Below, piece after piece: positions 1-6,336 of a DNA stretch of 64,000 nucleotides (the first letter of the stretch is position 1; each line of letters begins with the position of its first letter). Where the stretch lies: positions 1 through 64,000 of the forward strand of contig CANLZY010000022.1 in NCBI GenBank assembly GCA_947495685.1, given 5' to 3'. Below the pieces are notes generated by a model. That model was given only the letters and a program-made list of their open reading frames with translations, was not told the origin of the DNA and ran no database searches. Made by a program: the position numbers and the translations under genes. This stretch comes from an uncultured Tropicimonas sp. Lineage in GTDB: Bacteria > Pseudomonadota > Alphaproteobacteria > Rhodobacterales > Rhodobacteraceae.

Positions 1-26
1 CAACCGGAAATGGGCGGGCGACATCA

Positions 27-66
27 GCGTTCGCCATTGTGCTTGAACCAATGGCGCATCAATGGC
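27..66. repeat. Palindromic insertion 1 in transposase
   Basis: About 38-45 nt separates codons for WAGDI from the next conserved transposase codons (TQEGW) and shifts the frame. It contains the inverted repeat CGCCATT (32-38) / AATGGCG (50-56). Confidence 0.6.
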
Positions 67-186
67 TCACTGTGGACACAGGAAGGCTGGCTCTACCTCG
101 CTGTGATCCTCGACCTGCATTCCCGGCGTGTCGTCGGCTGGGCGGTGAGCAACCGAATGAAACGCGAGCTGGCGATCCGGGCGCTG

Positions 187-228
187 ATCCCTCTCATGGT
201 TTGCAAACAAACCACTGCCGGGGAGTGG
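187..228. repeat. Palindromic insertion 2 in transposase
   Basis: A 42-nt block lies between the conserved codons IRAL and MAIALRQPP, preserving frame. It contains GGTTTG (198-203) / CAAACC (208-213) around a CAAA loop. Confidence 0.65.
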
Positions 229-256
229 ATGGCAATCGCCTTGAGGCAACCGCCAA

Positions 257-301
257 GAGGCATTCGGCATTCGCCTCGAACCGGTGGCGGCTTGAATGCC
301 T
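257..301. repeat. Palindromic insertion 3 in transposase
   Basis: About 45 nt lies between codons for RQPP and HHTDRGSQ. It contains GGCATTC (266-272) / GAATGCC (294-300), preceded by a second direct copy of GGCATTC at 259-265. Confidence 0.62.
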
Positions 302-384
302 CATTCCACCACACGGATCGCGGCAGCCAATACTGCTCTCTCGACTACCGGAAGGCCCTGCGCCAGCATGACTTCAAGGTCTCC

Positions 385-421
385 CTCTTGGCGATTGCCT
401 GCAATCGCCTGCCGGCAATGG
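385..421. repeat. Palindromic insertion 4 in transposase
   Basis: A 37-nt block lies between codons KVS and MSGK. It shifts the frame by one, exactly accounting for the change of reading frame here. It contains the perfect 8-bp inverted repeat GGCGATTG (390-397) / CAATCGCC (402-409) with a 4-nt loop. Confidence 0.7.
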
Positions 422-448
422 ATGAGCGGAAAAGCCAACTGCTACGAG

Positions 449-505
449 TTCAAGCAGGTCCGCGCCAGCGGATTGAATGATCCGGGGGATCATTCAACGG
501 CGCAG
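449..505. repeat. Palindromic insertion 5 in transposase
   Basis: A 57-nt in-frame block sits within the conserved NCYDNAAVETFF region. It carries a perfect 11-bp inverted repeat TTGAATGATCC (473-483) / GGATCATTCAA (487-497) with a GGG loop, flanked by an outer GCGCC (462-466) / GGCGC (499-503) pair. The GATCC-loop-GGATC core resembles insertion 6. Confidence 0.72.
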
Positions 506-598
506 AACGCGGCGATCGAAACCTTCTTCAAGACGATCAAGGCCGAGCTGACCTGGCGCCGTTCATGGCCGACCCGGCGGGCGGCCGAGCTGGCCGTT

Positions 599-642
599 TG
601 CGCCTGAAATCGATCCCCCGGATCGACTTCTTGACGGCTTAA
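599..642. repeat. Palindromic insertion 6 in transposase
   Basis: A roughly 44-nt block lies between codons for ELAV and KYINGFYDP and shifts frame. It contains CGATCC (611-616) / GGATCG (620-625) around CCC. It introduces a stop and separates the C-terminal transposase fragment. Confidence 0.68.
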
Positions 643-976
643 CTCAAATACATCAACGGTTTCTACGATCCGCGCCGCAAGCATTCAGCTCTCGGCTGGA
701 AAAGTCCCTTGGCCTTCGAGGCCCAGGCCGCCTAAGTGAGAACCTGGAGCGGCATCAAATCGGGACAGGTCCATTACGCGCCATGCCGCGGCCCGTTCCC
801 CTGCCTGTCGTGATGCGGGGCCGTGACTTTTTTTCGCGTTGCAGCGACGGATATCGGCGCGTACCGCGTACAAAAAGTTGCGGTCGCGCCCTTGCAACCT
901 CTTCATCCCCAAGCAGCTACGGGCACGCCAGGCTCCGAGCTGACCCAAGTGTCACCAGAAAACTCGGACCCGTTCC

Positions 977-2317
977 ATGAATCTCCGCCCATTGATGATC
1001 CTGCCTCCACTCGTGATTGCCGTGCTCGGCTTCAACTGGATGACGCGGGAACAGCCCGAGGACGTCACCCGTCACGAGGAATCCCGGCTCGCGGTGCGGG
1101 TGGTGGAGATCCTGCCGCAACCCGTCTCGGCCAGTGTCACCGGTTATGGCCGCGTCGAACCGGTTCGGGACTGGTCGGCCGTGTCCGAGGTTCAGGGACG
1201 GGTCGACAGCATCCCCGGCGACCTGGCCATCGGCAGCATCGTGGAAGCGGGCGAAGTGCTGTTTGAAATCGACGTGACTGACTACGAGCTTGCCCGGCAG
1301 AAGGCGCAGGCCAATATCACCGCGGTCGAGGCCCAGTTGCGCGAAATCGAGCGGCAGGAAGAAAACACCCGCAAGTCTCTGGAGTTGCAGGAACGGACGA
1401 AGGCCGTGGCGCAGGACGAGTATGACCGCGTCGCCTCTCTGGTCGAACGCGGTGCCTCGACTCAGGCCGCGCTCGATACCGCGCAGAAAACGCTGTTGGC
1501 GCAATCGAATTCGGTACTCGGCCTGGAGAACACGCTGGCGCTCTACCCGGCGCAGCAGGAAAGCCTGGAAGCGACACAAGCCGTGCGAAATTCCGAGCTG
1601 CGCGAAGCCGAGCGGTCAATCGAGAAGGCGACACTCACCGCGCCATTCCGCGGCCGGGTTTCGGAAATTGGTGTGGAGGTTGGGCAGTTTGTCCGCACCG
1701 GTGACACATTGCTGGTGCTGGACGACACCTCGGCCGCCGAAGTGACTGCCGAAATCCAGCCGACAACCTTTGCGCCGGTTTTCATGGCAACACGGGGCAA
1801 GGTCGACCTTTCTGCCGAGAGCATCGATACTTCCCGCGCGATCGAGTTCCTGAAAGAAGCCGGAATTTCGGCCGAAGTGCGCGTCTCGCTCGGACACCGC
1901 GAAATGTCATGGCCAGCGGAACTGGTGCGAATGCGCGGAACGCTCGACAAGGATACCGCGACGATGGGCGTTGTCGTCCGGGTCGAGGATCCGACAATCG
2001 GGCAGCCAAACCTGCAACGCGCGCGGCTCGATTCCGGTGCCTTTGTGTCCGTCATCTTCACCTCGGAGCCGATCGAAAACACCATCGTCGTTCCGCGAAG
2101 CGCCTTGCGCTATGGCGACGACGGTGCACCCTTTGTCCACCTCGCGGATGAGCAGGACCGGCTTGCCAAGGCTGCGGTCGGGGTCGGCCCCTCCATCGGT
2201 GACGACTCCATCATCCTGAGCGGGTTGGAGGGCGGCGAGCGGTTGGTGTTGAGCGAACCTTCACCGCCGGTGATCGGCATGGCGCTGGATCCCGTCATGC
2301 CCACGGCGGAGCAGTAA
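977..2317 (+). CDS. RND efflux periplasmic adaptor (HlyD/AcrA family)
   Basis: Membrane-fusion subunit of a tripartite RND pump, 446 aa. An N-terminal hydrophobic segment (about residues 5-22) anchors it to the inner membrane with no lipobox. Residues about 65-105 form the first half of a lipoyl-like hairpin (VQGRVDSI then GEVLFEIDVTDY). A long Glu/Gln/Lys-rich alpha-helical coiled-coil hairpin follows (about 108-215), then the second lipoyl half (ATLTAPFRGRVSEIGVEVGQ) and beta-barrel and membrane-proximal domains. The ATG at 977 gives the only sensible signal anchor; its Shine-Dalgarno sequence is poor. The permease gene starts one base after this stop, so they form an operon. No outer-membrane factor gene is beside them, so a shared TolC-type channel is inferred. 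Confidence 0.9.
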   Translation: MNLRPLMILPPLVIAVLGFNWMTREQPEDVTRHEESRLAVRVVEILPQPVSASVTGYGRVEPVRDWSAVSEVQGRVDSIPGDLAIGSIVEAGEVLFEIDVTDYELARQKAQANITAVEAQLREIERQEENTRKSLELQERTKAVAQDEYDRVASLVERGASTQAALDTAQKTLLAQSNSVLGLENTLALYPAQQESLEATQAVRNSELREAERSIEKATLTAPFRGRVSEIGVEVGQFVRTGDTLLVLDDTSAAEVTAEIQPTTFAPVFMATRGKVDLSAESIDTSRAIEFLKEAGISAEVRVSLGHREMSWPAELVRMRGTLDKDTATMGVVVRVEDPTIGQPNLQRARLDSGAFVSVIFTSEPIENTIVVPRSALRYGDDGAPFVHLADEQDRLAKAAVGVGPSIGDDSIILSGLEGGERLVLSEPSPPVIGMALDPVMPTAEQ

Positions 2318-2318
2318 C

Positions 2319-5300
2319 ATGATCGCCTGGTTCGTCCGTCACCCTGTCGCGTCCAATCTGCTGATGGCGCTGATCTGCATTCTCGGCCTCTCGACCGTCA
2401 GCAATATCGAGCGCGAGACCTTTCCCGACACCACCGCCTCCACCGTTCTGGTGTCCATCGCCTATCCCGGCGCCTCTGCCATCGACGTGGACGAGGATAT
2501 CTGCACCCGGCTGGAGGATGCGATCTCCGGCACCGACGGATTGGCTGAGCTCGACTGTCTCTCCGTCGACGGGCGCGCCGCAGCGACAGCCGAACTGGAG
2601 ACCGGCGGCGATATCATCCAGTTCTACAACGATGTCTCATCCGCAGTTTCAGGTGTGAACGACTTCCCGAGCGACGCAGAGACACCGTCCATCGAGCGTG
2701 GCGGGCGCACCGAGATGATCGCCCGGATCGCCGTCTCCGGTATCGACGGCAAGAAGGGCCTGCTGGAATATACCGACGAGCTGGCAAACAGGCTCCAGGG
2801 GGTGGATGGCGTAACCGAAGCGACAGTGTCGGGGCTTACCGACCGCGAGTTGCGCGTGACATTCGACGACGAGGAACTGCGCCGCTACGGGTTGTCGAGC
2901 CAGGGCGTGGTCGATGCGATCAACGCCCGCTCGCTCCAGCAACCGCTGGGCGAGGTGCAAACGACCGAAAAGAGCCTCGTGCTGCGCTATTCGGACGTGC
3001 GCCGCTCGATTGCCGATCTCGAAGACCTGATCGTCCTGCAGAACGCAAGCGGCGGCATCGTCCGGCTCAAGGATCTCGCGACCGTGCGGATCGTCGACAG
3101 CGACGAGAACACACAAAGCTTCATCAACGGCGCGCAGACGGCGACGATTCAGATCATGAAGGCGTCGGAAGGTGATTCCATCCGTATCTTCGAACGTGTC
3201 GAGGCCATTCTGGAAGAGGAACGTGCCACCTGGCCAGAGCCGTTCCAGATCACCGTCATCAACAACGTGACCGAGATTGTCGCGGAACGTCTTTCGCTCA
3301 TCGTCAGCAATATCGGTATGGGGCTGGTGCTCGTCTTTGCCGTGATGTGGATGTTCTTCACGCTGAAGGAGGCGCTCTGGATATCGGCCGCCTTGCCGGT
3401 TTCCTTCCTCGGCGGGCTGTTCCTGATGAATGCCTTTGGCGTGACCATCAACATGATCACACTCATCGCGCTGCTGATGGCGGTCGGACTGATCATGGAC
3501 GATTCCATCGTCATCGCGGAAAACATCGACAAATGGCGGTCGCGTGTCGGCGGCAAGGAAGCCGCCTGGCGCGGCACGCAGGAGATCATGCCGGGCGTGC
3601 TGTCGTCGTTTCTGACCACGGCCTGCGTCTTTGGCCCGTTGATGTTCATCGACGGTGATCTGGGACAGGTGCTCAAGTACATTCCGATGGTGCTGCTGCT
3701 GACCCTCGGATTGTCATTGCTCGAAGGGTTCCTGATCCTGCCGCACCATCTGAGCCATGCGGGAAACCAGAGTCCCACCAGTCACGCACAACGCCCCGCC
3801 GCACGGATGCTGGAACGGTTCAAGGAGAGCGCCGTCATTCCCGCCGCCGCCGCCCTTGCACGGGTCCGCTATCTGACCATCGGCACCGTGCTGGGGGCGC
3901 TCGTACTCTCGGTCGGGCTGGTCGCCTCCGGCCAGATCAAGGTCGTCGGGTTTCCGCAGGTGGAGGGCGACACGATCGAAGCAAAGATCGCGCTCACATC
4001 CGGGATCGCTCGCGAACGCACGGTGGCCAATGTCGAGCAGATCCTCGCAGGCCTTGAACGGGTAGATGCGCGCTATACCCCCGGCACCCAAGGCAGCGCG
4101 CCGCTGGTCGAACGCGTTCTCGTCAGCTACGGCTCCAATTCCAGCGTCCACGACAATGGCTCGAACACCGCGACGGTGACCGTCGACCTGTTGGAGACCG
4201 CACAGCGCAATGTGAGTGCGAACGAGGTCCTGCGGGTCTGGCGCGAGGAATCCGGAGCGCTGCCGGATCTGCATCAGATCAGCTTTGCCCAGAACGAGAT
4301 GGGCCCGGGTGGCAACGACATCGATATCGACGTCTCGGGGCGTGATCTTGGCGACGTCGAGGCGGCGGCGTCGGATGTCCTGGCACGCCTGTTGCAACGG
4401 ATCGACGTCAAGGAGGCCTATTCCGATTTCTACGGTGGGCGCCAGGAGGTGAAGCTCACGCTGAACGAATACGGCTATTCCGTCGGGCTGACACCGCAAT
4501 CGCTCTCGGCGCAACTTCGCCAGGCGTTCCAGGGCTCGGAAACCGACACGTTCCACACCGGAGCCTCCAATGTGAACGTGCAGGTGCAGCTGGGGGATAC
4601 GGTCGCGAACCTCACCGAGCTGGAGGAATTCCCGATCATCGTCGCCGATGGCAAGCAAACCGCACTGATCGCCGTGGCCGATATGGAGCTCGCCGCCTCC
4701 TACCCGACGATCACCCGCAAGGACGGGCGCGTCGTCGCCAACATCATCGGCCAGATCGACCGGAAAGCCACCACGTCCACGGCCATTTCGGCCTTCGTTC
4801 TGAACGACGTCGCGCCGGAACTGGAACGGCAATACCCCGGAACGTCGGTCTCCATCGGCGGCGCCACCGAGGATCAACAGAAATCGCAATCCTCGGTCGG
4901 CTCAAAGCTGCTGCTGGGGCTCGTCGGCGTCTACATGGTGCTCGCCTTCCAGTTCCGCAGCTACACGCTGCCGCTGGTTGTGATGCTGTCGATCCCCTTT
5001 GCGCTGATCGGGACGATCCTTGGCCACTGGGCCATGGGGCTGGATCTTTCGATGCCGAGCATGATCGGCTTTGCCTCGCTTGCGGGGATCGTGGTCAACA
5101 ACGCCATCCTGTTCCTGACCTTCTTTCAGACCCACCTGCGGGGGGATGACCATGTTGCGGCCGCCCTCGACGCCGTCCGTGCCCGCTTCCGGCCGATCCT
5201 CTTGTCAACCGGCACGACGGTGGCCGGGCTTCTTCCGCTGATCGCGAGCACCTCGGTCCATGTGCAAACCATGGTGCCGCTGGTTGTTTCGGTGGCGGCT

Positions 5301-5456
5301 GGCCTGACGGCCTCGATGATCCTGGTGACACTGGTGCTGCCATCGTTGCTCAGCATTTATTTCGACATCTTCTCGGTGCAAAAATGGGTAGAAAAATTCG
5401 ATGAGGTGGAGAGCGGCGATATCCCGGGGCAAACGGGCACGCTGACGGAGACGTGA
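2319..5456 (+). CDS. RND efflux transporter permease subunit
   Basis: Inner-membrane proton-driven RND pump of 1045 aa, the usual AcrB/MexB length. TM1 is at about residues 10-28, followed by a large periplasmic loop, the TM2-6 block, a second periplasmic loop and TM7-12. TM4 carries the proton-relay pair in VGLIMDDSIVIAEN (Asp-Asp at about 393-394). The adaptor gene ends one base upstream (TAA then C then ATG). The divergence of the periplasmic loops places it in the broad hydrophobe/amphiphile RND group; the substrate cannot be told from sequence. No regulator adjoins the pair directly; an AraC-type gene lies convergently about 0.9 kb downstream. Confidence 0.93.
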   Translation: MIAWFVRHPVASNLLMALICILGLSTVSNIERETFPDTTASTVLVSIAYPGASAIDVDEDICTRLEDAISGTDGLAELDCLSVDGRAAATAELETGGDIIQFYNDVSSAVSGVNDFPSDAETPSIERGGRTEMIARIAVSGIDGKKGLLEYTDELANRLQGVDGVTEATVSGLTDRELRVTFDDEELRRYGLSSQGVVDAINARSLQQPLGEVQTTEKSLVLRYSDVRRSIADLEDLIVLQNASGGIVRLKDLATVRIVDSDENTQSFINGAQTATIQIMKASEGDSIRIFERVEAILEEERATWPEPFQITVINNVTEIVAERLSLIVSNIGMGLVLVFAVMWMFFTLKEALWISAALPVSFLGGLFLMNAFGVTINMITLIALLMAVGLIMDDSIVIAENIDKWRSRVGGKEAAWRGTQEIMPGVLSSFLTTACVFGPLMFIDGDLGQVLKYIPMVLLLTLGLSLLEGFLILPHHLSHAGNQSPTSHAQRPAARMLERFKESAVIPAAAALARVRYLTIGTVLGALVLSVGLVASGQIKVVGFPQVEGDTIEAKIALTSGIARERTVANVEQILAGLERVDARYTPGTQGSAPLVERVLVSYGSNSSVHDNGSNTATVTVDLLETAQRNVSANEVLRVWREESGALPDLHQISFAQNEMGPGGNDIDIDVSGRDLGDVEAAASDVLARLLQRIDVKEAYSDFYGGRQEVKLTLNEYGYSVGLTPQSLSAQLRQAFQGSETDTFHTGASNVNVQVQLGDTVANLTELEEFPIIVADGKQTALIAVADMELAASYPTITRKDGRVVANIIGQIDRKATTSTAISAFVLNDVAPELERQYPGTSVSIGGATEDQQKSQSSVGSKLLLGLVGVYMVLAFQFRSYTLPLVVMLSIPFALIGTILGHWAMGLDLSMPSMIGFASLAGIVVNNAILFLTFFQTHLRGDDHVAAALDAVRARFRPILLSTGTTVAGLLPLIASTSVHVQTMVPLVVSVAAGLTASMILVTLVLPSLLSIYFDIFSVQKWVEKFDEVESGDIPGQTGTLTET

Positions 5457-6336
5457 AGCATTCGCCATCGGACGAAAGCGAGACACTCCGGGCCGAGCGA
5501 TAGACCTCCGGAGCCACCACCGAAGGCGCGCCGGAGGTCAACCTAGGCGCCTATGCGACCGCACAACGCGCCTGACGTCTGGGCGTTCCGGTGCCTGGCA
5601 GGGCATGTACACCGATGCCTAGCCGGGTGCGAAAGCTGCACAACGACCTTTGATGCAGGAACTGAGCCGGGCGTTCAGGCGGACGCGGCATGATACCGGT
5701 CCGCGGACACCATCGGGGACCGGGTCAAGAACAACGCCACGGGCGTGTGGGCGCTCAGTTGCGCACAGGTAGTCCCGATCCTGTCTTGCGGCATTTCCGC
5801 CATTCAACTCCTTGCCAATTTCGCCCCGACGTTCTCACAGCCTTTGGCAGATTTTGCCGCCGCGATCGGAGCGTGCCAGACCACACCACTGGACATCAGC
5901 GCCCAGACTTTCAGCGCGGACTTGTGGGCGAGGAGCACTTCCGCCAGCATTTGCGACTGTCCGGGATCAGCATCTGTCCGCCTGATCGAGGGATTGGTGT
6001 GACAGAAGAACGGAGGATCAAGGTGTAATCCGGGGGGCAAGTCCTCCGACAAGCGGAACAACGAAGCTGACGGCTGCACAAGACATCAATGACATCCGTC
6101 GCAAGACGCGGACACACCCTGCGGCGGCAGGGATCATCCGTGCAGTCTTGGAAGGGTTGCGCCGAGAGTGTTGCCGCGCTGTGCCCCCGGGAGGGGATTG
6201 CTGCCAGTCTGTACTACAGCTGACCGAAACAGTTCCTTGAGGCCGGGAAGGAGCGATTGGCTGGCGATACCCCGGCTTGACGCCCCCCCCCCTCGGTGAA
6301 GGATCGCCGTCTGCCTCATGCTTGACTAAGGCTTGA
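5457..6336. other. Gene-free interval between RND operon and AraC gene
   Basis: About 880 nt separates two convergent genes. Open frames in both strands are short, Arg/Pro/Ser-rich and resemble no family I know. A CCTCCGG / CCGGAGG inverted repeat lies just after the permease gene near 5510-5545 but has no T-run. A run of ten C residues is at 6283-6292. I see no supportable gene here. Confidence 0.5.

Follow-up and report, generated by a model that had tools for sequence, protein, structure and literature searches.

The first 735 nucleotides (plus strand) of contig CANLZY010000022.1 from an uncultured Tropicimonas sp., whose positions 1 to 64,000 are the window analysed here, contain the 3′ part of an IS3-family transposase gene (orfB), which is truncated by the contig start (G000:C22:1) and interrupted by six short blocks. 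These blocks are probably insertions of very small, non-autonomous mobile elements that are recognized by their shape, accumulate in insertion sequences (ISs) and ride on them. A first-pass annotation of this DNA had proposed six short inserts in the transposase frame, brought in by repeated insertion of tiny palindromic elements. The first part of the proposal is confirmed and the second supported, the inserts by an excess of hairpins over shuffled sequence, by blocks that recur in many copies and by uninterrupted homologues, and the repeated insertion by one family of blocks, termed family I, which is multi-copy in this genome and in its relatives and for which empty sites exist. The names family I, II, and III were coined in this analysis, and the results on empty sites, sequence contexts and covariation cover family I only.

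Six Inserts in a Transposase Remnant

The Pfam family rve is matched by the translation of window positions 1-480 read through its stop, and the remnant 1-735 as a whole can be aligned to annotated uninterrupted IS3 transposases of the same IS group (L147, L148, L149), the window copy itself being degenerate. This alignment, which the first-pass annotation had recommended, together with a paralogue on contig C20, resolves blocks 2, 4, and 5 as clean inserts with clear borders, those of family I without target duplication; for blocks 1, 3, and 6 the borders may be off by several bases. Judged by sequence, blocks 2 and 4 belong to family I, blocks 1 and 3 to family II and, more loosely and as the weakest assignment, blocks 5 and 6 to family III:

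Block 1: 28-68 (borders ±2), minus strand; family II, centre GCCATTGGTTCAAG, stem GCCATTG/CAATGGC, 8-bp hairpin at 32-56.
Block 2: 189-227, 39 nt, plus strand; family I, stem of the GGTTTGC type, at the RAL^xMA site of orfB.
Block 3: 262-298 (borders ±5), minus strand; family II variant with another outer stem, GGCATTC/GAATGCC.
Block 4: 384-420, 37 nt, plus strand; family I, stem GGCGATTGC.
Block 5: 449-505, 57 nt in frame, plus strand; family III by its GATCC-GGG-GGATC core, 11-bp hairpin at 473-497.
Block 6: 596-647 (borders uncertain), minus strand; family III-like, hairpin at 610-626 (GATCC-CCC-GGATC).

Five of the blocks carry perfect hairpins of at least 7 bp, at 32-56 (8 bp), 197-214 (7), 390-409 (8), 473-497 (11), and 610-626 (7); block 3 is not a simple hairpin, its 7-bp repeat GGCATTC/GAATGCC standing around a conserved centre. 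Five hairpins with stems of at least 7 bp in 735 nt compare with a mean of 0.57 in dinucleotide shuffles, 0/200 of which reached five, and three with stems of at least 8 bp compare with a mean of 0.19 and a maximum of 2 in 85 pieces of the same length taken elsewhere in the window; the single stem of at least 9 bp is equalled in 5/200 dinucleotide shuffles. The stems had also been described as all different except for a core common to blocks 5 and 6. That core is indeed shared, but the six blocks actually form three groups of two (2 and 4, 1 and 3, 5 and 6).

When window 1-735 was searched as DNA against its own genome, 27 matches including itself were returned, many of which are confined to block 1, 2, or 4 and lie in different surroundings. 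Block 1 has eight further own-genome matches, several with the same flanks, block 2 has ten, and block 4 has relatives at C5 and C3. The site of block 4 is empty in the paralogue on contig C20 and in homologues, and the insertion site and stem type of block 2 recur in copies from another genome (G093). Block 5 is found at the same place in the IS copies of contigs C20 and C52, which marks it as an older, inherited insert; in one of its stem pairs both sides are changed in C52 and a single side in C20. The first-pass annotation had held that its reading would fall if the blocks were single-copy and unrelated to any repeat, or if an intact homologue carried them in frame. Family I is multi-copy in its own genome and in relatives and has empty sites, so neither applies to it; block 5, being 57 nt long, in frame and inherited, does fit the second description. 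A second copy of the window transposase end with block 6 stands likewise at a contig start (G000:C84:1-146; L002, L045), so the multi-insert IS is probably present in several copies in this genome.

Family II has a centre of about CGCCANNGGTTCGAG, whose core gives 8 own-genome matches against 1 for the reversed pattern. Its outer stem varies between copies (GCCATTG/CAATGGC, GGCATTC/GAATGCC, GCCTGT/ACAGGC, GATCCT/AGGATC, AGCATC/GATGCT), these stems having been read by eye, without a control, from about 20 loose matches, some of which are chance. In family III, the GATCC core of block 5 is also seen in L075 and L110 and the core of block 6 in L078 and L211, and a core ACGGTCC-NNN-GGACCGT occurs as an exact pattern at four own-genome places (control 0), e.g. 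L036 15086-15108 and L039 12556-12578.

Stem, Ends, and Target of Family I

Family I has the architecture CCCTCTC-R-hairpin-CTGCCGGGCARTG, in which the ends are conserved and unlike each other in sequence, and the stem is variable in sequence yet complementary. Its length is 37-43 nt in 202/214 distinct contexts; in one large class a lone unpaired base stands three pairs up the stem (A in 66/71 contexts), and the first stem pair is G-C in all 43 contexts of the 22-nt class. A context was admitted to the 214 if it had 5 or more pairs, no more than 2 mismatches and sufficient flank, which raises the pairing fraction; a few chance matches may remain, L183 being one of the contexts. The pairing test was therefore repeated on 132 strict matches without pairing selection, with the 3′ arms dealt anew 500 times. 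The Watson-Crick fraction was 0.917 for 35 distinct 22-nt middles (dealt-anew mean 0.663, maximum 0.740) and 0.850 for 19 distinct 18-nt middles (mean 0.584, maximum 0.699), and at least three Watson-Crick types occur at 6 of the 16 pairs of these two classes. The contrast is indicative of a stem that is kept by compensatory change while its sequence varies, relatedness being left in when the arms are dealt anew.

Insertion was assessed by removing CCCTCTC...RTG and comparing the remainder with relatives among the collected loci, to which the search was limited and in which 148/214 contexts went uncompared. The remaining 66 have an empty-site relative, which is matched exactly in 49 cases and with a difference of one base in 15 and of two bases in 2; counted per distinct site, an empty relative was found for 52/161 (37 with zero left over), and among sites compared at ≥85% identity zero bases were left over in 13/15. 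Insertion of family I is precise and proceeds without target-site duplication. The host base to the left of the element is C in 169/214 contexts and the right side is GAY in 128/214, a target preference of roughly C^GAY. Clustering the 20+20-nt flanks loosely gave 161 sites, of which 28 recur, and at 16 of the recurrent ones the stems differ clearly; the strictest clustering tried gave 186 sites, with different stems at 8 of the 20 that recur.

A subgroup of six loci (L210, L242, L244, L265, L131, L208) has longer stems, of the GGCAGATTTTGC type, followed by a GATGSCSGG-like sequence. One member adjoins a gyrase B gene at its end and another a DDE_3 transposase, and the subgroup may be a separate, partly intergenic subfamily.

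Distribution of Family I

The pattern CCTCTCN{14,26}CTGCCGGGCA is matched 32 times in the own genome and its reversed control not at all; the pattern occurs in 51/150 genomes of the bacterial family (reversed control in 3/150), the match being single and stemless in five of the 51 (G021, G070, G102, G108, G145). A stricter pattern was found in 2/192 class-wide genomes, both of the same bacterial family, and in 0/189 class genomes outside it. The scan of named genomes gave at least 118 stretches with family I matches; among the 80 matches listed, 75 have titles of Rhodobacterales, to which we take the named genera to belong, or of plain Alphaproteobacteria (2 of these). Beyond these, the listing has one Vreelandella contig, with stems in both of its two rows, and L183 (poor stem), L184, and L230 (both stemless), the last three of which are taken as chance matches. 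Viral contigs contributed 7 stretches, one of them stemless. In these samples family I is nearly restricted to one bacterial family.

The two Vreelandella matches (L179, L224) lie in a gammaproteobacterial assembly, on Vreelandella neptunia contig NZ_JAKVTW010000024.1, and reflect either horizontal transfer or contamination.

Residence in Insertion Sequences

For the classification of flanking genes, 125 of the 132 strict matches (named-genome and viral loci) were kept. Seven were dropped, namely the stemless L184, L219, L230, L277, and L288, L261 with 3 pairs, and, by hand, L183 with its poor 6-pair fold; L261 and L277 may be decayed real elements. One chained flank cluster takes in 84 of the 125, and in 83 segments of it (≤400 nt from the element) the 19 Pfam families matched belong without exception to transposases, integrase cores or HTH domains, with rve (19 members) and DDE_Tnp_1 (13) as the largest; the scan does not give the share of segments with any match. 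Outside the cluster are 41 loci, of which 30 were searched against Pfam: 18 adjoin a transposase, 2 an HTH only, 1 a phage integrase, 3 host families (a gyrase B end, a peptidase and dehydrogenase pair, and SnoaL) and 6 gave nothing. The other 11 were left out (L290 and L293, which are identical copies, L292, L208, L265, L210, L244_6443, L287, L180, L223, and L196_3787). Thirty loci sampled across different genomes (L105-L134) include 5 that are stemless; beside the 25 with stems, an adjoining transposase is supported by Pfam for 9, a host gene family is found for 4, and 5 have no Pfam match:

Sample loci beside host gene families (Pfam): L123 (below its cut-off), L127, L131, L133.
Sample loci without a Pfam match: L121, L122, L126, L130, L134.
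Sample loci called transposase from motifs only, not via Pfam: L111, L116, L117, L118, L120, L125, L132.

The host ISs include IS3, IS5, IS21, IS66, IS91, IS256, IS630, IS1182-like, and IS6-like elements, some of these labels having been assigned by reading, and family I stands in strong excess beside or inside the transposase genes of many IS families. Since transposase genes make up a small share of such genomes, as general background rather than a computed baseline has it, this excess is large. The suggestion that the elements home to transposase DNA is borne out to that extent; active targeting may not be needed, as tolerance of dispensable genes and hitch-hiking on ISs may suffice. About 22/161 sites fall, by reading, at a catalytic Asp codon or at the Walker B Asp of IstB (e.g. 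^DRTGIK, ^DATYLKAH, HHP^DRG, ^DNG, ^DKGY, LHG^DDT), for which the C^GAY preference may account, since the codon before a catalytic Asp often has C as its last base.

Family I elements without a visible adjoining transposase lie in L196 (about 4003-4213), behind the apparent end of a peptide transporter gene, and in L223 (about 6135-6175); in this set one site is common to two Sulfitobacter genomes, with different stems.

The length of the insert is divisible by three in only 30/214 contexts, so the ISs that carry the inserts are mostly frame-broken; in the window, blocks 2 (39 nt) and 5 (57 nt) are in frame. The two-contig genome G020 has six copies of one IS, 98.8-99.5% identical to the first, all with the same four frame-breaking inserts (38, 40, 38, and 38 nt), two in sense and two in antisense within one gene. 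A search with 122 orfB residues found no intact copy in G020; beyond the six copies it matched fragments with 53-78% identity, and different transposases with ≤39%. The G020 copy that was compared has no further coding indel and no stop across 286 orfB codons, and among the copies 5 codons show nonsynonymous and 2 synonymous differences, a pattern that looks unconstrained after multiplication. A loss of the orfA start across the G020 copies was considered and rejected, the ATG being kept in five of six and changed to ATC in one. In G054, three IS copies are 99.9-100% identical and carry two 41-nt inserts each; the full-length relatives there are 73-75% identical, three without these inserts and one with inserts of its own, and there is also a 125-nt piece at 86% identity. 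Of four copies in G093, each with one additional base in orfA, two have six inserts, while the other two have part of them and share an internal deletion. These lesions and the shared deletion imply that dead copies of this IS can spread. ISs with two to four inserts already in place have nevertheless multiplied, and no intact copy close to them was found.

Proposed Mechanism and Alternative Explanations

In the model that we favour, a trans-acting enzyme would recognize the folded single strand of the element, more likely as DNA than as RNA, by its shape and conserved ends and would paste it exactly into a new site. Inserts would rarely be tolerated in host genes, as a result of which the elements would persist in ISs; the loaded ISs, for the most part frame-broken, would be moved by transposase supplied in trans and would bring the elements into other genomes and onto plasmids, in which further sites would be hit. 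Movement of dead ISs in trans is preferred because the dead copies of G093 have spread and the changes in G020 look unconstrained. As for the strand, wobble pairs on the element strand (GT/TG, 13) compare with 29 of their counterparts on the other strand (CA/AC), related copies included; GT/TG being no commoner than CA/AC, folding of an RNA of the element strand is not favoured, and a route through reverse-transcribed RNA is possible but less favoured. On the opposite strand the element is preceded by the preferred target CRTC, reminiscent of the short left target in IS200/IS605 transposition, and the absence of target duplication appears compatible with single-strand transposition of that type.

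Among the 150 genomes, Y1_Tnp is found in 16, of which 8 have family I, Y2_Tnp in 17, of which 9 have it, and RVT_1 in 40, of which 17 have it (16 without G021, whose match is stemless). There is no Y1 match in the element-rich G010, G020, G086, and G093, and neither a Y2 nor an RVT_1 match in G074 and G123. REP-associated tyrosine transposases (RAYT, Y1; REP denoting repetitive extragenic palindromes), the Y2 enzyme of IS91 and reverse transcriptase were accordingly rejected as obligate movers, there being no obligate association.

It has to be noted that several observations weigh against the model of shape-recognized mobile elements. No moving enzyme emerged from the Y1, Y2, and reverse-transcriptase candidates in the 150 genomes, and no insertion was seen in progress. 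The small 20-nt class, with 8 distinct middles, has a Watson-Crick fraction of 0.929 that equals the dealt-anew maximum of 0.929. Of the 66 empty-site comparisons, 17 leave one or two bases, many of them at only about 80% identity. A site occupied by different stems could reflect either independent insertions or an exchange of the stem in place, and the excess beside transposase genes may be inflated, because element-bearing ISs multiply and their copies are not independent.

It is unlikely that the inserts are REP-type palindromes of the GTAG or CGTC superfamily mobilized by RAYTs. Size, hairpin, and alphaproteobacterial host are similar, and precise, duplication-free insertion resembles single-strand HUH transposition. 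CGTC REPs are, moreover, alpha-rich and have no dedicated transposase (PMC3733652). Against this stand the lack in family I of a GTAG or CGTC tag, of a complementary AT at the base of the stem and of a CCA tail, and the finding that Y1_Tnp is not needed. Protein-coding palindromes like the Rickettsia palindromic elements (RPEs), tolerated as an in-frame peptide, are very improbable: they would account for blocks 2 and 5, which are in frame, and for the presence of block 5 in related IS copies, but for family I the few lengths divisible by three contradict them, as does the occurrence of both orientations, with two sense and two antisense inserts in the G020 IS. That the hairpins are chance palindromes or products of decay inside a dead transposase has virtually no probability, the degenerate state of the window copy notwithstanding; multiple copies, conserved ends, empty sites and the 0/200 shuffles refute it for family I.

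A further possibility, which we consider quite improbable, is that the inserts are silent, i.e. that ribosomes skip them or that they are removed from the message, so that interrupted ISs still make transposase, for which phage T4 gene 60 and the mitochondrial byps are parallels. It would explain why six G020 copies with four frame-breaking inserts each lack an intact counterpart while the compared copy is otherwise open, and why the G054 IS is a near-identical triplicate with full-length relatives so distant; the sites at catalytic or Walker B Asp codons also speak for it, inteins favouring places of this kind. However, both orientations occur within one gene, the G093 copies have an extra frame lesion, and two of them share an internal deletion, so that dead copies can evidently spread. 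The 5 nonsynonymous and 2 synonymous differences in G020 look unconstrained, and the orfA ATG has become ATC in one of the six copies. The related view that the hairpins are hyperparasites of ISs, which aim at catalytic codons and are skipped or removed on expression, the broken ISs still yielding transposase and multiplying, is given a similarly small chance.

If the model of non-autonomous, shape-recognized insertions is right, the elements are too small for coding an enzyme, and the stem may be one of many sequences provided that it pairs. How minimal hairpins move would then be open to direct tests in which stem, ends and target are altered separately. Their accumulation in transposase genes, some of it precisely at codons for a catalytic Asp, would bear on how genomes and hyperparasites limit or exploit ISs.

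Relation to Known Repeats

In the literature searched, at the level of titles and abstract openings, no naming of such elements was found, nor did it confirm the remark that roseobacters are known to carry many short palindromic repeats. The closest system in ecology is RUP of Streptococcus pneumoniae, a small non-autonomous repeat reported to reside in ISs of more than six families and to inactivate transposase genes (PMC2229807); family I likewise resides in ISs of several families. RUP is described as 107 bp long, with terminal inverted repeats, a TA target and IS630-Spn1 as the proposed mover (PMC2229807). Family I differs from this description in its length of 37-43 nt, its lack of a target duplication and its free stem sequence. 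A RUP-like miniature inverted-repeat transposable element (MITE) would have terminal inverted repeats and a target duplication, whereas the ends of family I are unlike each other and 49/66 comparisons leave 0 bases.

Closest in size and host are the CGTC REPs, which together with GTAG REPs are 20-40-bp hairpin repeats, some of them inside genes (PMC3733652). The definition given there for CGTC REPs comprises a CGTC/TGTC/CCTC tag, AT at stem positions 1-2 and a CCA tail, and their associations with other transposase genes are called few and fortuitous (PMC3733652). Family I falls outside that definition, its first pair being G-C throughout the 22-nt class and its tail CTGCCGGGCARTG, and unlike these repeats it has an excess beside transposase genes. 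From GTAG REPs it differs in that its ends are CCCTCTC and CTGCCGGGCARTG, with no GTAG tetranucleotide, and in that it does not depend on Y1 genes. RPEs are palindromic repeats of 105-146 bp inside alphaproteobacterial genes, to which they are fused in frame (PMC2229807), and RPE-4 and RPE-6 have been equated with CGTC REPs (PMC3733652). Compared with RPEs as outlined there, family I is shorter and most of its lengths break the frame.

The small dispersed repeats (SDR) of Nostoc, which Elhai is said to have described in 2008, are reportedly very small, mobile and marked by compensatory changes in the stem; they are reported to be 21-27 nt long and to occur in cyanobacteria, in other contexts than family I. 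Compensatory stem change of the SDR kind is seen in the 22-nt and 18-nt classes of family I, with and without pairing selection. If the proposed model is right, family I would, to our knowledge, be among the smallest bacterial mobile DNAs known.

Surroundings in the Window

Against Rfam, window 1-1000 gave no convincing hit; the sole match, at 540-607 on the minus strand (E 0.45), scores 23.6 bits where the gathering score is 70, and it touches the edge of block 6 only. Genes for an HlyD-like adaptor and an AcrB-like pump adjoin the broken IS at 977-5456; their frames are open and ordinary.
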